In this document: piece after piece, positions 35,783 through 51,638 of the stretch
Layout: each line of letters starts with the position of its first letter
How positions within the stretch are numbered: position 1 is the stretch's first letter
Source: Bacteroidota bacterium
Lineage (GTDB): Bacteria > Bacteroidota > Bacteroidia > Bacteroidales > UBA4417
Direction: 5' to 3'
DNA length: 64,000 nucleotides
Assembly (NCBI GenBank): GCA_013376995.1
Contig: JACAAZ010000010.1
Span: 1-64,000 of the forward strand
Notes under the pieces: generated by a model
What the model was told of the DNA's origin: nothing
The model's input: only the letters and a program-made list of their open reading frames with translations
Databases searched by the model: none
Position numbers and translations under genes: made by a program

Positions 35783-37147
35783 ATGTCAGCTAAAGGATTG
35801 ATCAGTCATATTCTAGATTACAGGAAGCTCATTTCAGCTTTCCTTGCTACGTTGCTGTTTCTTGCATTCCTGTATTATGTCCATATTCCGAAGAACCTTC
35901 TTTATAGCGTACTGCTGGTTCTCTTATGCTTTGCATTGTATCTCGGTTCTAAACAAAAGAACAATCTCCTGGTACTTGGCGTGTTGGGAGGTGTAAGCCT
36001 TGTAGTGGTGCTTTTTCAACTCTGGCAAGCATGGTCGACATTTTTCGTAATCAATGAATGGGATTTCCTGGCATTGTACACTTATGGCAAGGCCGGAGCC
36101 GATGGACTAGCATTTTATGATCCTGCCAGTTTCACGCATTTTATGGAGACCATCCCTGTAAACATGCAGTTAAGCCAGGATTTCTACGATTCTGTCATCA
36201 AAGTTGGATGCGATTATCCACCCACCTCCATGCTATTATTCGCCCCGCTGGGTTCACTAGAAGTTCATACAGCACTGGTTGTATGGCGATTATTTATTAT
36301 ACTGGCCTTACTAGCTGACATTTACCTGGTTTATAAAATTTTCGATACGCATGAGAACAGGTGGTTTCGCCTTCTCATTGTAGTAATCCTGGTTTTTGTG
36401 CTTCCGAGTACCAATATGACGCTTAACCTTTGCCAGACAAACTTTTTCGTTTTGTTTTTCATCCTGCTTGCCTATCGGGACAAGGACAACTGGAAGGCGG
36501 GTATGTTCCTGGCACTTGCAGTGGTTTTTAAACCAGTAGCGGCAGTAGTTAGCCTGTATTTCTTTGTGAACCGGAAATGGAAACCAATCACTTCCTTCAT
36601 TCTGACAGGTTTAGCACTCTGCCTCTTGTCCATCTTATTCTTTGGTTGGAGTAATTTCATCACCTTCTTTACCTCTCCACCAACATCAAGAATTCCTCTG
36701 ACAAATTACTATGCCATTACGTTCAACCAGTCACTTTATGCAATCTTATACAGGTTAAGCCTGCATGATGGAATGGCATTATTATCACAAAACCTGAGCA
36801 TGATAGTCCTTTTTTCTTCAGCGGTACTGACTGCCACAGCTTGCTTAGGCTCAGTGCGACTTTCAAGAATAAACAGCAATGCAGCATTCCTGATTTTTTT
36901 ACCCCTTGCCCTTCTCATTTACCCGCTTTTTTGGATACACTATGCAGTGATCCTCTTACCCTTGCTTTTTGAAATAATCAGCTATAAAAACAAGACCGCT
37001 TTGAGTTATTTTCTGGTCATATTCCTGCTAGTCATAAACAGCATTTTTACAGCTTGCTTGCTGCTGTTGGCATTGCTGGTCTTTTTCTCATTCAGGAAAC
37101 AGTCAGTTTTTGGGCCGATTGATATCAAATTCCTTCACTTTCGCTGA
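35783..37147 (+). CDS. GT87-like (DUF2029) integral-membrane glycosyltransferase, copy 1
   Basis: The 454-residue protein has about ten to twelve membrane helices. The first periplasmic loop contains WDFLALYTYGKAGADGLAFYDP, and a later loop has GCDYPPTSMLLFAPLG. NLCQTNFFVLFFILLAYRDKDN and the VFKPVAAV segment complete the DUF2029/GT87 pattern. Members use polyprenyl-phosphate-linked sugars (mannose or arabinose in known actinobacterial cases) on the outer face of the membrane. A closely related gene follows at 37379. It probably adds a side-chain sugar after flipping (inference). Confidence 0.82.
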   Translation: MSAKGLISHILDYRKLISAFLATLLFLAFLYYVHIPKNLLYSVLLVLLCFALYLGSKQKNNLLVLGVLGGVSLVVVLFQLWQAWSTFFVINEWDFLALYTYGKAGADGLAFYDPASFTHFMETIPVNMQLSQDFYDSVIKVGCDYPPTSMLLFAPLGSLEVHTALVVWRLFIILALLADIYLVYKIFDTHENRWFRLLIVVILVFVLPSTNMTLNLCQTNFFVLFFILLAYRDKDNWKAGMFLALAVVFKPVAAVVSLYFFVNRKWKPITSFILTGLALCLLSILFFGWSNFITFFTSPPTSRIPLTNYYAITFNQSLYAILYRLSLHDGMALLSQNLSMIVLFSSAVLTATACLGSVRLSRINSNAAFLIFLPLALLIYPLFWIHYAVILLPLLFEIISYKNKTALSYFLVIFLLVINSIFTACLLLLALLVFFSFRKQSVFGPIDIKFLHFR

Positions 37148-37378
37148 AAATCAGCTTAGCCTTTCCCATCTCAATTTTATACTGGAAATTCTGAGCCTTT
37201 ATTCCTAAATCTTTGTTCTCAAATAGTTGCTCGCTCTTTTAATCTCAGGATTTAGAGATTAAAGGAATTTTCAAAAAGTCTCGATAATTTTGACATCCAA
37301 AAAGCACTTGAGGTTAGATTGTTCTATCAGCCTTTGTTAAGTTAACTACCGGCAGGATTTCTATTGTATTCTTTTATT

Positions 37379-38743
37379 ATGAACCACTCTTTTTCTATAC
37401 TTAAACCTTTATTCGACCGGAAAGTAATTCTGAGTTTTATTCTGACCAGCACTTTTCTTACCTGTCTTTACCTGCTTAACTTTAACAATGATCTGACATT
37501 CCTGGTGTTGATGATTGTGTTTTGCTCTTCTTTGTTTCTCTACAGAAGCGGGAAACAGGAAAAAACCGTATTGGGAATACTTGCTGGTATTTCTGCAGGA
37601 ATGGCAGGGTATTATCTTTTTGTGTGCTGGCAGCTTTTCTTCTCAATCCTGGAATGGGATTTCCTTGCATTTTATGTTTACGGGAAAGCCGGTGCGGAAG
37701 GACTTCAATTCTACAACCCTGAAAGTTTTACCAACATATTGGCTGCAATTCACCTCCCATTTGAAGTAAGCAAGGATTTCGCCGACTCAATCATCAAAGT
37801 TGGGGTAAGCTATCCACCCACTACCATGTTGATGCTTGCGCCGTTTGGTTTCCTGGATCTTTATACTGCGAATATTCTGTGGAGAACTTTTATCATCAGT
37901 TTCCTGGTTCTGGACATCCTTCTTATTTATAGAATATTTCTTGCAAAAGAATCAAGGCTAATACATCTGCTTATCATTATGACCCTCATATTGATCTTCA
38001 GGGGCTCCCTAAAAACGGTTTATCTTTCGCAGACGGTATTCCTGATGCTTTTCTGCATATTGCTAATCTACCGAGATCCTGATAATTGGAAATCAGGTAT
38101 ATACCTGGCAATAGCAGTCATGATAAAACCAATAGCAATTGTTTGGGGACTTTATTACCTGGTCAACAGGAGGTTCAAGCCTTTTTACTCATTTGTCATA
38201 AGCGGAGTTGTTCTTGTAGCGCTTACTATCTTCTTTTTTGGCATAAACAACTTTGTAACCTATTTCACCTCCAACCCTACGTTACGAATACCGGCTTTTG
38301 TCTATAATGATAACTTCAATCAATCCCTGAATGCAGTTTTTGGGCGTTTTGTCAGCCATTATAATATATCATTTTTAACAGTGAATAAAGAAATCATTAT
38401 CGCCGGGATATCAATATTCCTCATAGGTATTACCTGCATTGCTTCATTCAGGCTGGCAAAGCAAGATAAAAGGAATGCCTTTATGATCTTTGTTCCTCTT
38501 TCCCTCCTGGTCTATCCTGGTTGCCTTGTTAACTACACACCCATGCTGCTTCCCATCTTCTTCTGCCTGCTTCATTCGAAAGAAAAGATATGCCTTCCGC
38601 TGGCAACTGCCTTCTTATTGATTGCAGGGTTCAGCACTTTTACCGGGAACCTGGCAATACTCATTGTTTTAGTTGCTTTTTCCTTTTTGAATTTAAAGAT
38701 TTTTACGGCCACCCCTTCGATGGAAAGGGTTTCCAATTCTTAA
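37379..38743 (+). CDS. GT87-like (DUF2029) integral-membrane glycosyltransferase, copy 2
   Basis: This is a paralogue of the preceding gene with the same order of motifs: WDFLAFYVYGKAGAEGLQFYNP, SYPPTTMLMLAPFG, SQTVFLMLFCILLIYRDPDN, and MIKPIAIVWG. The frame opens with a TTG at 37364, but the ATG at 37379 (MNHSFSILKP) is the more likely start, giving 454 residues. A 231-base gap separates it from copy 1 and contains TAATTTTG at 37285-37292, which fits the -7 consensus weakly. The two copies probably transfer different sugars or act at different acceptor positions. Confidence 0.82.
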   Translation: MNHSFSILKPLFDRKVILSFILTSTFLTCLYLLNFNNDLTFLVLMIVFCSSLFLYRSGKQEKTVLGILAGISAGMAGYYLFVCWQLFFSILEWDFLAFYVYGKAGAEGLQFYNPESFTNILAAIHLPFEVSKDFADSIIKVGVSYPPTTMLMLAPFGFLDLYTANILWRTFIISFLVLDILLIYRIFLAKESRLIHLLIIMTLILIFRGSLKTVYLSQTVFLMLFCILLIYRDPDNWKSGIYLAIAVMIKPIAIVWGLYYLVNRRFKPFYSFVISGVVLVALTIFFFGINNFVTYFTSNPTLRIPAFVYNDNFNQSLNAVFGRFVSHYNISFLTVNKEIIIAGISIFLIGITCIASFRLAKQDKRNAFMIFVPLSLLVYPGCLVNYTPMLLPIFFCLLHSKEKICLPLATAFLLIAGFSTFTGNLAILIVLVAFSFLNLKIFTATPSMERVSNS

Positions 38744-38807
38744 ATTTGTAGCGTTTCCTTCATTCATTTGATCTGATCCAATTCATTCATTGCTAAATAC
38801 TTATTTC

Positions 38808-39224
38808 GTGAAAGGCATTGAGAAGATTAAGCTTATTGAGTTGCCAACGATTCCTGATTTACGTGGAAATCTTTCTATCGTCGAGGAAATGGATGAAATC
38901 CCATTCAAAATTGAAAGGGTTTACTGGATTTACGATGTGCCCGGTGGACAGGTTCGAGGTGGCCATGCATTCAGGAAACAGCAGGAAATGATCATTGCCT
39001 TGTCCGGAAGTTTTGATGTTTTTGTTGATGATGGCACAACTCAAAAAACTTTTTCGCTGAACCGGTCATATTACGGGCTATATATTCCAGCTGGCTTGTG
39101 GAGGCAGATGCAAAACTTTTCGACAAATTCACTGGCAATGGTGTTGAGTTCCACACATTATTATGTCGAAGACTATATCAGGGATTACAATGAGTTCGTC
39201 ACCTTAAGCATGAACCATGAATGA
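38808..39224 (+). CDS. FdtA-like sugar 3,4-ketoisomerase (cupin), copy 1 with altered active site
   Basis: A cupin of 138 residues if the GTG at 38808 is used (a TTG at 38790 would add six residues). It matches the FdtA/QdtA fold: RGNLSIVE, YDVPGGQVRGGHA, FDVFVDDG, YYGLYIPAGLWRQM. The family isomerises dTDP-4-keto-6-deoxyglucose at C3/C4. Known members have two conserved histidines in RGxHAH. Here H53 is present but the second position is phenylalanine (GGHAFRK), so catalysis may be weak or altered. The gene overlaps copy 2 by 8 bases. Confidence 0.82.
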   Translation: MKGIEKIKLIELPTIPDLRGNLSIVEEMDEIPFKIERVYWIYDVPGGQVRGGHAFRKQQEMIIALSGSFDVFVDDGTTQKTFSLNRSYYGLYIPAGLWRQMQNFSTNSLAMVLSSTHYYVEDYIRDYNEFVTLSMNHE

Positions 39225-39651
39225 TTCCAGTATTTTCGATTGCGTTATACTTCCCCTGAGCAAAATACATAACAGGGCCGGGAATATTACCATTATTGAA
39301 GGCGATCGCAATATTCCCTTTGAGATCAAACGAATTTATTACCTGTATGATATCCCAGGAGGAGCATCAAGGGGTGGGCATGCACATAAAGATCTGTATC
39401 AGCTTGTAGTTGCAGCAAGCGGTGCATTTGATGTCTTGCTTGATGACGGAAGGAATAAAAAGGTCGTAACACTGAACAGACCTGATTACGGCCTCATGAT
39501 CGTTCCAGGTATCTGGAGGGAATTGATGGAGTTTTCGTCAGGAGCTATATGCCTGGTTCTTGCTTCCAATCTTTATTCAGAATCTGATTACTTAAGAAAT
39601 TATGATGAATTCAGAAGCTATAAGACCTCCAATGATCCATCCGCTGGCTGA
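39217..39651 (+). CDS. fdtA: FdtA-like dTDP-4-keto-6-deoxyglucose 3,4-ketoisomerase (cupin), copy 2
   Basis: The 144-residue cupin is a paralogue of the preceding gene. It keeps both expected histidines (H55 and H57 in RGGHAHKD) as well as [26 protein letters not shown] and [13 protein letters not shown]. It should convert dTDP-4-keto-6-deoxyglucose to the 3-keto isomer, the substrate of an FdtB/QdtB aminotransferase such as the one at 40177. FdtA (galacto product) and QdtA (gluco product) cannot be told apart by eye. It overlaps the FdtC-like gene by 20 bases if that gene starts at 39632. Confidence 0.87.
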
Positions 39652-40180
39652 TGTTCAATCAGTCCGGATTGGCAGTGACACTAAGATCTGGCAGTTTTCA
39701 GTGGTATTGAAAGATGCGGTGATTGGTGAGAACTGTAACATCAACTGTCATGTTTTTGTTGAAAACGATGTTGTGATAGGCAATAATGTGACTATTAAGG
39801 CCGGTGTTTACATCTGGGATGGGATACGGATAGAAGACCAGGTATTTGTCGGGCCCAACGTAACATTTACAAATGATAAAACACCGCGTTCAAAGCAATA
39901 TCCTGATTTATTTCAACATACGGTTATCCGCCATAATGCAAGTATTGGTGCAGGATCAATCGTTCTGGGAGGAACTGAGATCGGAGAATATGCGCTGATA
40001 GGGGCTGGATCCCTGGTAAACAGGGATGTACCTGCAAGGGCAATGGTTCTGGGGAACCCTGCGAGGAGAGTTGGCTGGGTTAATAAGAACGGAACCCGAA
40101 TGATAACAGATGGTGATTTCTTTGTTGACGATGAAGGTAATAAGTGGAAAGTTACAGACAATACACTGATCCAATTATGA
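39632..40180 (+). CDS. fdtC: FdtC-like dTDP-3-amino-3,6-dideoxyhexose N-acetyltransferase
   Basis: The open frame begins at 39602, but the ATG at 39632 ([10 protein letters not shown]) matches the usual N-terminus of this family and reduces overlap with the upstream gene from 50 to 20 bases. The 182-residue protein is a left-handed beta-helix acyltransferase with hexapeptide turns ([48 protein letters not shown]). [13 protein letters not shown] is a diagnostic FdtC/WxcM/QdtC-type loop, and GNPARRVGW follows. It uses acetyl-CoA to acetylate the 3-amino group. Its stop codon overlaps the aminotransferase ATG (ATGA). Confidence 0.9.
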
Positions 40181-41283
40181 GAATTCCTTTTCTGAATCTT
40201 GCTCCCATGCATTCGGCAATCAAACCTGAGGTTCAGCAGACCTTTGAACAGGTTTATGATAGTAACTGGTTTATTCTTGGCGAACAACTTCAGGAGTTTG
40301 AGAAGGCTTATTCCCAGTTCTGTGAAACTACACATACCATTGGTGTAAGCAACGGACTGGATGCACTTACACTTTCTTTGCGGGCACTTGGGATTGGGCC
40401 AGGAGATGAGGTTATTGTCCCATCAAACACTTTTATTGCAACATTGCTGGCAGTAACTTATGCAGGCGCCACTCCTGTTCCTGTAGAACCGGATTTCAGA
40501 ACCTATAACCTTGATCCTAACAGGATTACTTCCGCTATCACCCCGAATACGAAAGCTATTATTCCGGTACACTTATATGGCCAGGCATGTAAAATGGACA
40601 TGATAACAGATCTTGCAACGCAAAATGGATTGCAGGTTGTTGAAGATAATGCCCAGTCGCATGGAGCTTCCTACAAGGCAAAACCAACAGGTAGCTGGGG
40701 TGTACTGAACGGAACCAGCTTTTATCCTGGGAAAAACCTTGGTGCCCTGGGCGATGGAGGAGCTATAACCACTGACAACCCTGAACTTGCAAGAAAAATA
40801 ACCATGCTGCGCAATTATGGGTCGGAGAGAAAGTATTACAATGAAATTCAGGGCTTTAACATGAGGCTTGATGAACTTCAGGCAGCTATACTAAGAGTTA
40901 AACTTGGGCATATTAAATACTGGATCCATCAACGCCAGGATATTGCCAAAATCTATGGGCAGGAACTCAAGGGTGTTGGCGACCTGGTACTCCCTTATGT
41001 AATTCCGGATGCTACGCATGTTTACCACTTGTATGTCGTTCGTACGGAATACCGCGACGAACTTAAGGATTACCTTGAAAAGCAGGATGTCGAGACCATG
41101 ATCCACTATCCTGTCCCTCCTCATCTACAGCGGGCATATACTTCCCTGAATTACCGGAAAGGAGATTTCCCGATAGCTGAGAAGATCTCCAAAACATGCC
41201 TTAGCCTTCCTATATGGCCCGGGATGAATTCCCAGGAAATTGAAAAAGTAGTTACTGCTATACGCGATTTTTTCAGGAACTAA
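40177..41283 (+). CDS. fdtB: DegT/DnrJ/EryC1/StrS aminotransferase (FdtB/QdtB-like)
   Basis: A GTG start further upstream (40144) is possible, but the ATG at 40177 overlaps the FdtC-like stop codon in an ATGA arrangement and gives the normal N-terminus [10 protein letters not shown]. The 368-residue PLP enzyme has the sugar-aminotransferase marks: [34 protein letters not shown], and [17 protein letters not shown] with the PLP lysine at K186. It transfers an amino group from glutamate to the 3-keto sugar. With the adjacent FdtA and FdtC genes it forms a complete cassette for dTDP-3-acetamido-3,6-dideoxyhexose from the 4-keto intermediate. Confidence 0.92.
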
Positions 41284-44984: not shown

Positions 44985-47900
44985 ATGAAAATAAAATACT
45001 CCTTCACTTCCAAGGCTCTGAAAAGCTTGATGATAATTACATTCAACTTGCTATTATTCAGCAATTTATCAGCTCAAGGCTGGTATGATGCAAATTGGTT
45101 TTATCGTCGTCCTGTTTCTGTATCAAATTCCGGATCTGGTATCTTAACTGATTACCAGGTTAAAATTACGCTGCCTGGTTCTTTTGATTTTGGTAACACC
45201 AATGCAAATGGCAGCGATATTCGTGTTACAACCTCTGACGGAACATCAGAAATACCTTTCTGGATTGAGACCTGGAATGCCGGGTCCGGAGCAACAATTT
45301 GGGCCAAAGTACCAAGTATTCCAATTTCAGGAACAACTATCTACATATACTATGGCAATCCTTCCGCTATAAGTCTTAGCGATGGACATTCCACTTTCCG
45401 ATTTTATGATGATTTTGAAACTCCAAATCCTTCGGCTGGCACAGGATGGTCTCAAAAAGCCAATTTACCAACAAACATCGCTGACCAAACTGCGGCTTCT
45501 TATAACGGCAAAATATATTCCATAGGGGGCTATGGTAATGGACCTACTGATTCAAAGAACAAGAATTATGAATATGATCCAACTGCTGATACATGGACTG
45601 AGAAAGCACCAATGCCGACTCATCGCTGGGGAATGATTGCTGTCGAATTTAATGGTAAAATATTTGTTTTTGGAGGATCTTATGGTAACTGGGATACCAC
45701 CAATGTTTATAAGAACGAAGTATACGATCCTGCAACCAATACATGGGATATCAGTAAAGCTAATATTCCAGCTGGATTAGGCGGTCACGGGATTATGGGC
45801 CTTAAATATGGCAACAAAATACATTTGTTCCGAATGGGTTACCATTATGAATATGACCCGCTCACAGACACTTATACTCAAAAGTCTGGTTTACCTACGC
45901 CCAGGGTGTGGGGAACTTGTGCTACAGTAAATAACAAAATTTATATCATAGGTGGAGATAAGACAACCAGCACCACTCGCGTAAATGAAGCTTATGATCC
46001 TTCTACTGACAGTTGGCAAACTAAAAGTAGCATCCCATTGTCTGCACTTGGATTCACCAGGGAAAATCCGGTTATCAATGGAAAAATTTACGCTGCATTT
46101 GGCTGGAATTACTATGCATTTTTTTCTACTAATTATTGTTACGACCCAGCAACCGACATATGGGAACCAAAAAGTGATGCAACGCATAAAAGAGACGGAG
46201 CTGGATGTAGTGTTGTCAATAACAAACTATATGTTTTTGGCGGGCGTGCGGATGTTAGTGGTCCCTTTGGTTTAAACTACAATGAAGTGTATGACCCTGC
46301 CAGTGACATTTCGCCATTGGCTCTGAATTCCTGGGCAATCACTGGTACAGGTAGCGTATCCACAAGCATTGCTGCCAAGTGTAATGGGAATTACGGCATG
46401 ATCATTCAACAACCTGACAATGTTGCTGTTGGCCAATCTGCAAGGACAGTTGATGGTTTTGGAGCTACTTATGCATTAGATTTTAACTGGAATATGACTG
46501 ATGCCTATAACATTGGTTTTGAAAGACCAACAGGCGCTATTTCTCTTACAGAAACTGACTTGGATGGTTCACTATATTTCTATAATAACTCATCAAATAC
46601 TCCTGTCATTGAGTGGTGGCGTTCTGGATATACCCATTTGCAAAATAGTTCCTGGAACACCTGGCATAAAGTGACAGTCATTCGTAATGGAACCAATAGC
46701 AAGGTCAATTTTGATAATAATTCATATTCTTCTCTGACAAGCCTTACAGGTGGATCTGGCCGAATTACCTTCGGCTTGTTTTGGGCAGCCAAACAATATT
46801 TTGACGATATCCGGGTAAGGAAATGGGAGGGTTTTGACCCAACCACTACATTGGGAAATGAACAACACCTTACTCCTCCTGCTGCACCATTATTGGTGTC
46901 ACCCGCAAACGGAGCATTGGGCGTACCTTCTACACCTACATTTGTTTGGGATGCCTCACCTACTGCAACCTCCTATCATTTACAGATTTCTACCACCTCC
47001 AATTTCCAGTTTGTATTTGATGTTCCTGGTCTGACTAACACTTCCATCGCCATTGATGGCTTTGTCCCAGGAAGCACCTATTTCTGGAGGGTCAGTGCCA
47101 TTAACGACAGGGGACAAGGGAACTGGTCAAGCATTTGGCACTTTACAACCTGTGCCAATCCACCTACTATTTATGCCGGGCCTGACCAGACAGCATGTTC
47201 CAATGCGACTGAAATTGCAATGTCAGGGTTTGCTTTCACAAATGCTTCCGGCGCCAGCTGGTCAGGAGGAACAGGAACCTGGAATGGTGACACCTATTCA
47301 CCTTCAGCCGAAGACGTAGCAGCAGGTTATATTACCCTTACTTATTCAACGAATACTGCTTCACCCTGCGGAGATGTAAGCGATGATATGATTGTAACTT
47401 TCATCCCTGCTCCAACAGTTAGCTGGCCAGTTACTTTGCCGGCACAGTGCATTTCATCACATAGTTTTGCTTTAACAGGCGGTTCACCGCTTGATGGAAG
47501 TTACTCAGGCCCTGGTGTAACCGGAACTAATTTTGACGCTTCAGTGGCCGGGGAAGGAACGCACACCCTTACCTATACCTACACTGATCCGTTGACTTTA
47601 TGCTCTGCTTCTGCTACGGCTAATATATTCGTTAATGCATTAACACCCGTAGCCGCAGGATCCTATTCAGCTGTTTGTGTAAATGCCGCCAATATCAGCC
47701 TTGCAGGTTCCCCTTCAGGCGGTATTTGGACAGGAAACGGGGTATCCGGTGACCAATTGAATGGTTATGTATTCCATCCTTCCTCAGGTTCCCAGCTTTT
47801 AACATATACCTATACCGATGGCAATTCCTGTGCTAATACAGACCAGGTTACTGTCAATGTTAATCAACTTCCCGTAATATCGACAGGTTCATACGGCCCT

Positions 47901-50900
47901 GTTTGTGCTGGCGCATCAAACATCAACCTCATTGGATCTCCAACAGGTGGAACATGGACCGGAACAGGAGTAAGCGGAGACCTTGGGAATGGTTTTGTCT
48001 TTAGTCCATCTGCCGGCAGCCAAACTTTAACCTACACTTATACAGATGGCAATACTTGCTCTAATTCAGGCCAGGTTACAGTAACTGTAAATAATCTTCC
48101 CACTGTATCAACTGGCGCTTACGGGCCATTCTGTGAGAATGCTGCTGATGTTAACCTCACCGGATCGCCTGCAGGAGGTATTTGGACAGGAACCGGCGTT
48201 TCCGGCAATCAGCTTTCCGGATACATGTTTGATCCTTCAGTTGGTACTCAAACCCTAACATATTCTTACACTGATAATAATTCGTGTTTAAATTCCCAGC
48301 AGGTGAATATTGTTGTTCATCCTCTTGCAAACATTACTCCTGGCACTTATGGACCATTCTGTGTTGATGCCGCTGATGTGCACCTTGTCGGTTCACCGGT
48401 TGGCGGGACATGGACTGGAAATGGTGTATCCGGGGAACTTTTATCAGGATTCGTTTTCGATCCATCAGCCGGTACACAGACTTTAACTTATACGGTAACA
48501 GATGGTAATTCCTGTTCAAATTCAGGGCAGACAACAATAATAGTACATCAACTGCCGGCAGTTTCAGCAGGCTCTTATGGTTCCGCATGCATCGATGCAG
48601 CTGACGTTAACCTGGCAGGTACACCAGCAGGCGGCATTTGGTCAGGAAACGGCGTTTCGGGCTCTCAGCTGACAGGATATGTATTTGATCCATCCGTTGG
48701 CACCCAGACACTGACTTATACGATTACAGATGTTAATTCCTGTTCCAATTCAGATATTACGACTATAACTGTCAACCAACTTCCTGAAGTAGTAGCCGGA
48801 AACTATGGACCAGCCTGTATCAATTCCTCAGAAATCGCACTTGCAGGTACCCCGGGCGGTGGTACATGGACTGGTATTGGTGTTTCAGGAAACCTCCAGT
48901 CCGGATTCGTATTCAGCCCTTCAGCCGGCACACAAACTCTTACATATTCATATACAGGTGTTAACAGTTGTTCTAATAGCAATCAGACACTGGTTACTGT
49001 AAACCAACTACCAGTTGTATCTGCAGGCACCTATGCCCCTGTTTGCATTAATGCGGCTCATATTAACCTTGCAGGTACACCTGCAGGCGGAGTATGGACA
49101 GGAACTGGAGTTTCCGGAAACCAACTAAACGGTTATGTATTTGCTCCTTCAGTTGGAAGCCAAACCCTAACTTATACATTTACAGATGCAAACAGCTGTT
49201 CAAATAGCAGTCAGGCCACAATTACGGTTCATGAACTTCCGGTAGTTTCTGCGGGAACCTATGGGCCAGCTTGTATTGAATCTGCGGATATACCTCTTGT
49301 TGGTTCACCTGCCGGTGGCATTTGGACAGGAACTGGAGTTTCAGGCAGTGTACAAACCGGCTTCGTATTTGACCCAACAGCCGGTACACAAACCATTACC
49401 TATACTTACACAGATGGAAACCTTTGTTCCAATTCAGCTCAAACCCAGGTTGATGTAATCAATCTTCCCTCTGTCGTAGCAGGCTATTATGAACCAGTTT
49501 GTGTAAATGCGCTGGATAAAGATCTTCTGGGAACACCTGCAGGCGGGGTATGGACAGGAATCGGTGTGAGTGGTAACCAACAAAACGGCTATGTTTTTGA
49601 CCCTTCAGTTGGGACACAAACGCTTACCTATACTTACTCTCTAGGTAATACATGCAATACAACTGACCAGACTACGATTATCGTTCATGAACTGCCCCTG
49701 GTATCAGGAGGAAGTTATGGACCGGCATGCATTGATGGAGCTGATATCCATCTTGCCGGTACTCCGGCAGGTGGAGCATGGCATGGAACCGGAGTTTCCG
49801 GGAATGAAATTACAGGATATGTTTTCGATCCTTCTGTCGGAACGCAAAACCTAACATATTCCTATACAGATGGTAACAGCTGTGTGAATTCTGACCAGGT
49901 CACAATAAATGTGAACACATTGCCTCTCACTTCAGCAGGCACCTACGGCCCTGTATGTTCCAATGCAAATGATATTGCATTGCATGGCACACCTGCAGGC
50001 GGAGTTTGGAGCGGCACCGGTGTTAGTGGAAATCAACAGCAAGGTTTCGTATTTGACCCTTCTGTTGGAACTCAAACCCTTACGTACTCTTACACTGATG
50101 GTAATACCTGCGTTAATTCTGCCCAGGTTTCAATTACAGTTTACAATTTGCCCCAGGTTTCTGCCGGATCATATGGCCCTGCATGTATTGATGCTGCTGA
50201 CATAGCATTGGCTGGCTCACCTGCAGGCGGAACATGGACCGGAACAGGAGTTACAGGTACTCAGCAGGCCGGCTTCGTTTTCGATCCATCAGCAGGAACT
50301 CAAACCCTTACTTACAGTTACTCAGACGGAAACTCCTGCGCTAATTCAAGCCAGGTTACAATAACTGTTCATGACTTACCCGTAGTTACGGCTGGATCAT
50401 ATGCAGCCGTATGTGAAAATTCTGCTGATGTTGTTCTTGCTGGAACTCCTGCCGGTGGCGTTTGGACTGGAAACGGAGTTTCAGGCAGCCAACTTTCAGG
50501 ATATGTTTTTGATCCTTCTGTTGGAACTCAAAGCCTAACATATTCCTACACAGATGGAAACACTTGCGCTAGCTCTGACCATGTAACTATAAATGTCAAC
50601 ACAATACCATCAGTTAATGCCGGGACATATGCAGCAGTATGTGCAAACGCTGCCGATATCGTATTGGCAGGTACGCCTCCAGGAGGATTGTGGTCAGGCA
50701 CTGGAGTGAGTGGCAATCAGTTGAATGGTTTCGTATTTGATCCGTCGGTAGGTACTCAAACCATACATTATGCATATACCAATTTATCCGGATGTGTAAA
50801 CTCAGCATCGGTTACAATTACCATTTATCCCTTACCGACAGTATCTGCAGGAAATTATGCAGCTGTCCCTGAAGGATCAGGGCCAATAACTTTAACTGGC

Positions 50901-51638
50901 ACACCGGCAGGTGGTGTTTTCAGCGGAGTTGGTGTAAGTAATAGCCAATTTAATCCTGTTGTTGCGGGTTTGGGTAATCACACCATCACCTATACCTACC
51001 AGAATGAGAATGGATGCACTAATTCAGCAACCACGGATATAATAGTTTATGGTGGAACTAAAACTCTTAACCTGAAACTATTCCTCGAAGGATTATATGC
51101 AGGCAATGAAACCATGGATGAATCACACGGCCTTTCAGGACCACAATTCGGCGTTGGAATTGCTGACCAGGTAACCATTGAATTACATGATTCAAATTTG
51201 CCTTTCAGCACTATGTACACCTATGCTAATGTCAACCTGCCAGTAAATGGGCAGCTATCGATTAGTGGTATTCCCGGCTATGTAACAGGATCTTATTATA
51301 TTGTGGTTAAAAACCGCAATAGTGTGGAAACATGGAGTAGTGTTCCCGTAGTATTTGGTGCGATTTCAACCATATCTTATGATTTCTCCAGTTCACAATC
51401 CAAAGCTTACGGCTTAAACCTTCGTCAGGAAGGTACCGTCTGGCTCATATATGCCGGAGACGTAAACCAGGATGGAATCGTAGATGGATCTGATATGGCA
51501 GAGGTTGACAATCTCAGCACATCCATAGCACACGGTTATAACCCGGAGGATGTAAATGGAGATGGCATTGTTGATGGTTCTGATATGGCGATCATTGACA
51601 ATAATTCAACCAGCATTATCCAGGCAAAGAGACCATAA
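44985..51638 (+). CDS. Giant secreted DUF2341-kelch-repeat protein with dockerin-like C-terminus
   Basis: The 2217-residue protein has a signal peptide (cleavage probably after LSAQ, residue 31). A DUF2341-like domain follows (about 32-135; WYDANWFYRRPVSV, SDIRVTTSDG, IPFWIE, TIYIYYGNPSA). Six kelch-like repeats span about 150-445 (YDPATNTW, GKIFVFGG patterns). Next come a concanavalin-like part (about 446-630) and an FN3-like domain (about 635-720; SYHLQIS, YFWRVSA). After two Ig/PKD-like modules there are fourteen 76-residue repeats and one degenerate unit (891-2023). The C-terminus is a YYIVVKNRNSVETWS segment plus two calcium-loop motifs, DVNQDGIVDGSDM and DVNGDGIVDGSDM. No T9SS type A YPNP tail is seen. 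The likely role is surface or matrix adhesion. Confidence 0.92.
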   Translation: MKIKYSFTSKALKSLMIITFNLLLFSNLSAQGWYDANWFYRRPVSVSNSGSGILTDYQVKITLPGSFDFGNTNANGSDIRVTTSDGTSEIPFWIETWNAGSGATIWAKVPSIPISGTTIYIYYGNPSAISLSDGHSTFRFYDDFETPNPSAGTGWSQKANLPTNIADQTAASYNGKIYSIGGYGNGPTDSKNKNYEYDPTADTWTEKAPMPTHRWGMIAVEFNGKIFVFGGSYGNWDTTNVYKNEVYDPATNTWDISKANIPAGLGGHGIMGLKYGNKIHLFRMGYHYEYDPLTDTYTQKSGLPTPRVWGTCATVNNKIYIIGGDKTTSTTRVNEAYDPSTDSWQTKSSIPLSALGFTRENPVINGKIYAAFGWNYYAFFSTNYCYDPATDIWEPKSDATHKRDGAGCSVVNNKLYVFGGRADVSGPFGLNYNEVYDPASDISPLALNSWAITGTGSVSTSIAAKCNGNYGMIIQQPDNVAVGQSARTVDGFGATYALDFNWNMTDAYNIGFERPTGAISLTETDLDGSLYFYNNSSNTPVIEWWRSGYTHLQNSSWNTWHKVTVIRNGTNSKVNFDNNSYSSLTSLTGGSGRITFGLFWAAKQYFDDIRVRKWEGFDPTTTLGNEQHLTPPAAPLLVSPANGALGVPSTPTFVWDASPTATSYHLQISTTSNFQFVFDVPGLTNTSIAIDGFVPGSTYFWRVSAINDRGQGNWSSIWHFTTCANPPTIYAGPDQTACSNATEIAMSGFAFTNASGASWSGGTGTWNGDTYSPSAEDVAAGYITLTYSTNTASPCGDVSDDMIVTFIPAPTVSWPVTLPAQCISSHSFALTGGSPLDGSYSGPGVTGTNFDASVAGEGTHTLTYTYTDPLTLCSASATANIFVNALTPVAAGSYSAVCVNAANISLAGSPSGGIWTGNGVSGDQLNGYVFHPSSGSQLLTYTYTDGNSCANTDQVTVNVNQLPVISTGSYGPVCAGASNINLIGSPTGGTWTGTGVSGDLGNGFVFSPSAGSQTLTYTYTDGNTCSNSGQVTVTVNNLPTVSTGAYGPFCENAADVNLTGSPAGGIWTGTGVSGNQLSGYMFDPSVGTQTLTYSYTDNNSCLNSQQVNIVVHPLANITPGTYGPFCVDAADVHLVGSPVGGTWTGNGVSGELLSGFVFDPSAGTQTLTYTVTDGNSCSNSGQTTIIVHQLPAVSAGSYGSACIDAADVNLAGTPAGGIWSGNGVSGSQLTGYVFDPSVGTQTLTYTITDVNSCSNSDITTITVNQLPEVVAGNYGPACINSSEIALAGTPGGGTWTGIGVSGNLQSGFVFSPSAGTQTLTYSYTGVNSCSNSNQTLVTVNQLPVVSAGTYAPVCINAAHINLAGTPAGGVWTGTGVSGNQLNGYVFAPSVGSQTLTYTFTDANSCSNSSQATITVHELPVVSAGTYGPACIESADIPLVGSPAGGIWTGTGVSGSVQTGFVFDPTAGTQTITYTYTDGNLCSNSAQTQVDVINLPSVVAGYYEPVCVNALDKDLLGTPAGGVWTGIGVSGNQQNGYVFDPSVGTQTLTYTYSLGNTCNTTDQTTIIVHELPLVSGGSYGPACIDGADIHLAGTPAGGAWHGTGVSGNEITGYVFDPSVGTQNLTYSYTDGNSCVNSDQVTINVNTLPLTSAGTYGPVCSNANDIALHGTPAGGVWSGTGVSGNQQQGFVFDPSVGTQTLTYSYTDGNTCVNSAQVSITVYNLPQVSAGSYGPACIDAADIALAGSPAGGTWTGTGVTGTQQAGFVFDPSAGTQTLTYSYSDGNSCANSSQVTITVHDLPVVTAGSYAAVCENSADVVLAGTPAGGVWTGNGVSGSQLSGYVFDPSVGTQSLTYSYTDGNTCASSDHVTINVNTIPSVNAGTYAAVCANAADIVLAGTPPGGLWSGTGVSGNQLNGFVFDPSVGTQTIHYAYTNLSGCVNSASVTITIYPLPTVSAGNYAAVPEGSGPITLTGTPAGGVFSGVGVSNSQFNPVVAGLGNHTITYTYQNENGCTNSATTDIIVYGGTKTLNLKLFLEGLYAGNETMDESHGLSGPQFGVGIADQVTIELHDSNLPFSTMYTYANVNLPVNGQLSISGIPGYVTGSYYIVVKNRNSVETWSSVPVVFGAISTISYDFSSSQSKAYGLNLRQEGTVWLIYAGDVNQDGIVDGSDMAEVDNLSTSIAHGYNPEDVNGDGIVDGSDMAIIDNNSTSIIQAKRP
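47655..51053 (+). repeat. Fourteen exact 228-bp tandem repeats plus one degenerate unit
   Basis: Units start at 47655 and every 228 bases thereafter to 50847 (14 x 228 = 3192 bases). I checked the phase at the first six unit starts and at the fifteenth. Each 76-residue unit reads roughly AGxYGPxC..AxDIxLxGxPAGGxWTGxGVSGxQ..GYVFDPSVGTQTLTYxYTDGNSCxNSxQVTI, with two cysteines. The fifteenth unit (from 50847) lost its first cysteine and is shorter. Confidence 0.92.

Follow-up and report, generated by a model that had tools for sequence, protein, structure and literature searches.

Why would a surface-polysaccharide locus encode two overlapping proteins of the FdtA ketoisomerase family when one of them lacks a histidine of the active-site motif? 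The pair lies in a 64,000-nt stretch of a Bacteroidota bacterium genome (assembly GCA_013376995.1, contig JACAAZ010000010.1, positions 1 to 64,000, forward strand), here called the window. Copy 1 (38808..39224, + strand) begins with GTG, with an in-frame TTG upstream at position 38790, and carries the motif RGGHAFRK. Copy 2 (39217..39651, + strand) begins with ATG and carries RGGHAHKD. The reading frames share 8 bases (39217..39224), and coupled translation of the two is plausible. Both proteins easily clear the 23-bit Pfam gathering threshold for PF05523 (copy 1, 172.1 bits, E 6e-51; copy 2, 171.5 bits, E 9.5e-51), and an NCBIfam search matched neither to any model. They share 44% identity across 122 residues, and the 5.05-Mb genome contains no other PF05523 match.

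Residues of both copies are given in FdtA numbering. The TTC codon of copy 1 (38970..38972) places a Phe at the position of His51 in FdtA (PDB 2pa7) and in two mutant structures identified by their PDB titles, 2pae (H49N) and 2pak (H51N). The His-Ala-His codons of copy 2 (39379..39387) correspond to His49 and His51. Copy 1 retains the equivalent of Arg15, within a DxRG motif (codon 38862..38864), and copy 2 has Ala there (codon 39277..39279). An earlier note had described an overlapping FdtA-like pair with HAF in copy 1 and HAH in copy 2, and the coordinates, the family match and the alignment to FdtA all agree with it. Copy 2 thus has the histidine pair of a catalytic ketoisomerase and is presumed to be the 3,4-ketoisomerase subunit; copy 1 lacks that pair and is a candidate pseudo-ketoisomerase partner.

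Two genes on the same strand follow: a hexapeptide acyltransferase (39602..40180, + strand, with ATG 39632 as probable start), QdtC/FdtC-like by context, and a DegT/DnrJ/EryC1/StrS sugar aminotransferase (40144..41283, + strand), QdtB/FdtB-like by context. No NCBIfam model matched either above its cut-off. The window contains a surface-polysaccharide cluster with glycosyltransferases, an RmlD-like protein, a UDP-sugar dehydrogenase and asparagine-synthase-like proteins; RmlA and RmlB, the makers of the expected substrate, are encoded elsewhere in the genome. Just before the pair are two adjacent multi-pass membrane proteins (35783-37147 and 37364-38743) that look alike by eye, unaligned; the second belongs to GT87 (PF09594) and is perhaps a tandem duplicate of the first. 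Further on, 44985-51638 encodes a secreted-looking protein of 2217 residues whose translation shows a long run of similar GGxWTGxGVSG repeats and a C-terminal end with a calcium-binding-like D-x-N-x-D-G.

A close known relative is FdtA of Aneurinibacillus thermoaerophilus (PDB 2PA7), a dTDP-4-keto-6-deoxyglucose 3,4-ketoisomerase that shares its Pfam family and fold with both copies and its RGxHAH motif with copy 2. Like the pair here, it acts before a sugar aminotransferase. A review describes a dimer formed by exchange of beta-strands 2 and 3 and a site built from His49, His51 and His95, in which mutagenesis demonstrated the importance of His49 and His51 and His51 possibly shuttles protons (PMC2943079). 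In FdtA, which is inverting and has His95, two identical chains form two equal sites, whereas the window encodes two different chains, both with Arg at 95, of which copy 1 is without His51.

Surveys at several taxonomic depths place the pair in a wider setting. Within the window's genus (family group), PF05523 occurs in 6 of 16 genomes, always as pairs with HAF or HAY before HAH, and two of these six are fused into one reading frame. Family matches are present in 99 of 295 genomes of the order and 139 of 392 of the phylum. The matches fetched came from 80 regions (order and genus searches) and 39 distinct regions (phylum search), with most low-scoring members left out. The 121 loci analysed yielded 92 adjacent pairs. 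Residues 49 and 51 of copy 1 in these pairs are HF in 45, HY in 42, VY in two, and LH, HL and HK in one each; copy 2 is HH in 92/92. The same loci hold 34 single copies, HH in 31. Two of the three exceptions (L076 and L178) are copy-1-type proteins with an HH partner farther off in the locus, and the third (L117) is HL.

When the genome collection was scanned with an alignment of copies 1 alone, at least 585 relatives turned up among at least 594 stretches. In each of the best 80 of these, an HH copy 2 lies downstream in the same orientation, within 1 kb in 78 cases and fused in nine. The two samples gave 170 pairs (92 plus 78), a repeat (L191, of L153) having been dropped earlier; removal of three near-duplicates (L234, L229 and L258) left 167 non-redundant pairs. 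Named hosts include Bacteroides, Prevotella, Xylanibacter, Petrimonas, Salinimicrobium, Pedobacter and Cecembia. Seven contigs among the best 80 of the at least 585 relatives (L193, L194, L198, L201, L203, L207 and L242) are named as Planctomycetota, Deltaproteobacteria, Verrucomicrobia, Spirochaetales, Ignavibacteriales, Riflebacteria or Eubacteriales, reflecting either transfer or mis-binning. At L212, L264, L076 and L178 the copies are non-adjacent and both types are still present; the distance between their starts is 1.3-2.5 kb, except in L076, where they lie about 6 kb apart on opposite strands.

Given these surveys, the change at His51 is phylum-wide and is accompanied by copy 2 in the loci examined. 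The earlier note had proposed looking for the His-to-Phe change in other genomes and would have abandoned its idea had the change been unique to this one. Copy 1 lacks His51 in 166 of the 167 pairs, with Phe in 90 and Tyr in 73, which rules out chance, and pairs across the phylum rule out a change private to this genome. The "loss" of the histidine from copy 1 is an ancient condition of the whole lineage and did not arise in this genome.

The two copies show a reciprocal loss of active-site residues. Residue 51 in copy 1 is F in 90 pairs, Y in 73, L in two, and H and K in one each, and in copy 2 it is H in all 167. His49 is kept in 164/167 copies 1 and 167/167 copies 2; the complete histidine pair is found in 0/167 copies 1 (0/92 and 0/78 in the separate samples) versus 167/167 copies 2. 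Position 15 shows the opposite pattern, with R in 166 copies 1 (S in the other) and A 55, K 52, E 16, S 14, N 11, R 5 and others in copies 2. Its neighbor at position 13 is D in 164/167 copies 1 and mostly N or S in copies 2 (D in 14). Additional differences distinguish the copies at position 36 (W in 164 copies 1, Y in 165 copies 2), position 56 (E in 167 copies 1; Q in 162 and E in 5 copies 2) and position 103 (N in 167 copies 1, G in 164 copies 2). Position 95 is R in every copy 1, and R 122, A 35, S 6, N 2, G 1 and F 1 in copies 2. The full reciprocal pattern, with Arg15 but not His51 in copy 1 and the reverse in copy 2, occurs in 160 of the 167 pairs.

Stand-alone family members generally combine what the pair divides: Arg15 is present in 25/30 and His51 in 29/30 (Fisher P 6e-22 and 2e-32, values that ignore kinship). 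In a plasmid collection, 31 records matched; in all 7 loci read from them, DxRG and HAH occur in one chain, six of the loci being from alphaproteobacteria and one from Prevotella. Positions that are tight in copy 1 and relaxed in copy 2 are 9, 13, 15, 20, 22 and 26, near the N-terminus, and also 66, 84, 85, 88, 90, 98 and 99. The converse set includes 47, 51, 54, 70, 71, 91-93, 108-110, 116, 121 and 123, and also 12, 23 and 45. This trend fits a split into a strand half and a barrel half, though not cleanly. An analysis of inter-protein coevolution, too shallow with its 52 effective sequences to be decisive, ranked copy-1 position 105 with copy-2 position 61 at the top, scoring 9.0 versus a best of 7.1 in five shuffles.

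We propose, with a probability of roughly 0.7, that copies 1 and 2 form an obligate strand-exchanged heterodimer in which copy 2 is catalytic while copy 1 acts in the manner of a prozyme and possibly donates Arg15 to the site of copy 2. Sequences directly show the reciprocal residues, the joint presence of both copies in the examined loci, the grouping of copies 1 on one branch and the natural fusions (see below); the dimer itself would be the physical arrangement that these observations reflect. With its complete histidine pair, copy 2 most likely converts dTDP-4-keto-6-deoxyglucose to dTDP-3-keto-6-deoxyglucose, which the products of the next genes would aminate and acylate to a Qui3N-type sugar. 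Copy 1, with Phe or Tyr in place of the proton-shuttle histidine, would be non-catalytic. Because Arg15 and its DxRG motif are kept in copy 1 and lost in copy 2, copy 1 probably supplies this arginine to the copy 2 site, so that in each dimer one site would work and the other would be dead. If Arg15 does reach the partner pocket, the residue pattern would be that of a homodimer with two composite sites turned into a heterodimer with a single one, copy 2 forming the barrel half and copy 1 the strand half of the working site.

A composite site of this kind has a precedent in RmlC-type dimers, where, in the accessible parts of one account, TDP is held by residues of both protomers, some of them from exchanged strands (R25, F28 and E30, as read from the spacing of the text; PMC9095892). 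RmlC/StrM-type dTDP-sugar epimerases are likewise strand-exchanged dimers, formed by the same chain twice, unlike the pair here. A profile alignment of the FdtA family with the two RmlC proteins of this genome gave no match (E 0.34), and equating the DxRG motifs of the two families has no profile support, the likeness being by inspection.

Natural fusions provide a view of how the two chains may be arranged. Single-chain fusions account for 19 of the 167 pairs, each with copy 1 followed by copy 2, and 126 of the 148 unfused pairs overlap by a nearest-ATG rule. AlphaFold2 models were made for the fusions L250 and L270 from an input alignment of nine fusions. Both predict two well-ordered domains joined by a low-confidence linker (L250, mean pLDDT 85.7, pTM 0.85; L270, mean pLDDT 82.9, pTM 0.83). 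Since pTM is high despite the low-confidence linker, the halves appear to be placed confidently against each other in these models. Fitting the copy-1 half of the L250 model gives 1.4 angstrom over 134 residues with QdtA and 1.7 angstrom over 133 with FdtA; the copy-2 half gives 1.2 angstrom over 131 with WlaRB. Predicted strands span residues 4-7, 17-23 and 33-38, with Arg15 just before exchanged strand 2. StrM matches the fusion model at Z 10.1.

Among solved structures, the top relatives of both copies are WlaRB, HCAN_0198 and FdtA, and WlaRB is the best for copy 2. Searching by sequence found 12 distinct solved sequences, which bear the names or titles FdtA, QdtA, WlaRA, WlaRB, FdtD/WxcM-like or HCAN_0198, and none is described as a pair. 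Together, fusions and models argue for a mixed dimer rather than an FdtA-type homodimer. The suggestion in the earlier note that copy 1 might be an inactive partner in a heterodimer has thus gained ground through the histidine conservation, the 80/80 co-occurrence in the best 80 relatives, the 19 fusions and the two confident models.

Variation in copy 2 also bears on where the working site lies. Copies 2 divide into an R-type with Arg95 (122/167), in which Tyr35 and Leu54 are present in 122/122 and Leu97 in 106, and an A-type with another residue at 95 (45/167), in which Phe35 is found in 44, Cys54 in 40 and Glu97 in 35. The window copy 2 is R-type. Copy 1 has no association with the copy-2 subtype at positions 9, 13, 15, 18, 20, 22, 33, 35, 36, 46, 49, 51, 56 and 95. 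Other copy 1 positions are weakly associated, the highest being position 113 with 0.12 bits versus 0.79 for copy 2 position 35, kinship being ignored in these values. Because site residues 35, 54, 95 and 97 vary in concert in copy 2, this chain appears to hold the working site. Tyr35, which we take to be the proposed catalytic acid, is replaced by Phe in A-type copies 2, and the A-type may make a different product from the R-type.

How else might the pair be explained? Tandem duplication is common and the review cited above describes FdtA as a homodimer (PMC2943079), so the pair might be an ordinary duplicate forming separate homodimers, with copy 1 drifting or in an unrelated role. This is scarcely credible, given the age of the copy 1 lineage, its invariant residues and low dN/dS, the constant linkage in the loci examined and the fusions. 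In the set of 92 pairs, copies 1 have a median identity of 56% to one another and copies 2 one of 54%, against 41% between types; the own-genome value of 42% is close to the last, and the pairs are therefore not recent duplicates. An unrooted tree of 96 rows, built by a quick method with columns 49 and 51 masked and L212 and L264 left out, places 31 copies 1 and two separated copies 1 on one branch (SH-aLRT 97) with no HH row inside. Among the 30 of 42 sequence comparisons listed, eight gave a resolved dS for copy 1; in the three of these with dS below 1, dN/dS is about 0.04-0.07 (dN 0.025 with dS 0.41, 0.036 with 0.912 and 0.071 with 0.956), from which copy 1 appears to be maintained, not decaying. 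The old lineage, the low dN/dS and the fusions likewise led us to reject an artefact or gene decay of copy 1.

Two further explanations give copy 1 a pocket of its own. In one, copy 1 is an enzyme with altered chemistry, such as epimerisation, acting on the same nucleotide sugar in series with copy 2. Its pocket does keep His49, Arg95, Arg33, Arg46 and usually Tyr35, with an aromatic residue at 51, and the constancy of Arg95, His49, Trp36, Glu56 and Asn103 exceeds what a scaffold needs. However, Phe and Tyr replace each other at position 51 (90 to 73) whichever subtype copy 2 belongs to, which means that the site does not need a tyrosine hydroxyl, and His49 too is missing in three of 167; Glu56 and Arg95 could, as a guess, form a structural salt bridge that fills the pocket. 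We consider this explanation unlikely. The new stereochemistry that the earlier note had offered for copy 1 as an isomerase or epimerase found no support, in view of this interchange and of position 95, the known determinant of stereochemistry, which varies in copy 2 and not in copy 1. In the other, which we hold to be very unlikely, a non-catalytic copy 1 binds the dTDP-sugar and regulates it or passes it on to the aminotransferase, giving the copy 2 site no residue. Retention of most pocket residues besides His51 is compatible with such a role, as is the finding that 116 of 152 testable pairs have a match to an aminotransferase or an acyltransferase no more than 2.6 kb downstream, but such a role leaves unexplained why copy 2 has lost the Arg15 and Asp13 that copy 1 keeps.

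Several considerations temper the heterodimer proposal itself. The copy 1 site may not be simply dead, because it keeps His49 in 164/167 and Arg95 in 167/167 and has its own near-invariant Glu56, Asn103 and Trp36. Moreover, Arg15 is dispensable in the family, since QdtA has Tyr there and 5/30 stand-alone copies lack it; copy 2 might therefore act without copy 1. Also against the proposal count the scatter of copies 2 in the tree, the relaxed copy-2 positions beyond the N-terminus, the shallow coevolution signal, the failed profile match to RmlC and the aminotransferases, which do not sort cleanly by copy-2 subtype.

What the pair makes can be approached through position 95. QdtA (PDB 4O9E and 4ZU5) and WlaRB (PDB 5TPU, titled TDP-quinovose 3,4-ketoisomerase) have Arg95 as in copy 2; their PDB titles name no second chain type, and position 15 of QdtA is Tyr (its Tyr17). 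PDB 4zu7 is titled QdtA Y17R/R97H, which, as QdtA numbering is that of FdtA plus 2, corresponds to positions 15 and 95; that study, by its title, reportedly concerns product stereochemistry. According to the review that describes FdtA, enzymes retaining the configuration at C-4 have Arg in place of His95 (PMC2943079). The window copy 2 has Arg, not His, at 95, as in QdtA-type retaining enzymes, and a retaining, gluco product is therefore more likely than Fuc3N. By analogy to this rule and to the PDB title of WlaRB, the Qui3N route is thus the more likely one for the window pair. The names FdtB and FdtC (Fuc3N) that the earlier note gave to the downstream genes are consequently doubtful, because Arg95 points to a retaining, quinovose-type reaction.

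The aminotransferases of 109 of the 167 pairs follow the copy-2 subtype loosely: their tree requires 21 subtype changes versus about 26.6 when shuffled, a weak clustering with no clean split. Distances in 109 pairs are modestly correlated between copy 1 and copy 2 (0.51), copy 1 and the aminotransferase (0.48) and copy 2 and the aminotransferase (0.32).

Copies 2 do not form one branch. Of the 31 in the tree, 27 group with four HH singles (support 90) and four lie among other singles; the history of copy 2 is therefore less clean than that of copy 1, and copy 2 and stand-alone enzymes may have interconverted more than once. As a tentative extension of the heterodimer proposal, which we rate at somewhat less than an even chance, a Bacteroidota homodimer with two composite sites was split by complementary loss into one working site, built from the copy 2 histidines and Arg15 of copy 1, and one sealed site, and the nearly fixed dead partner then freed the live chain to switch subtype. 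The subtypes switched would be Tyr35/Leu54/Arg95/Leu97 and Phe35/Cys54/Ala95/Glu97, perhaps with different sugar products.

Prozymes offer a parallel for a conserved, dead-looking paralogue that co-occurs with a live one, as found here. In trypanosome AdoMetDC, a dead paralogue activates the live one in a heterodimer, according to the accessible parts of PMC6221367. That protein and pathway are unrelated and eukaryotic, and its heterodimer is reported, whereas for the pair here we infer one. Among the papers listed in searches of a mostly open-access literature, none describes a 3,4-ketoisomerase that is paired or heterodimeric, and the accessible parts of PMC3765361, PMC7725333, PMC7949155 and PMC6487966 contain nothing on such a pair.

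If the heterodimer proposal is true, the deoxyamino-sugar step of Bacteroidota surface glycans would need two genes, not one, and copy 2 expressed alone may look inactive or unstable. The annotated relatives listed among the plasmid matches bear generic names, such as FdtA/QdtA family cupin or WxcM-like protein, and this naming would at present hide the two-subunit nature of the enzyme. The pairs and fusions may then provide many natural replicates of the passage from a homodimer to an obligate heterodimer by reciprocal active-site loss.
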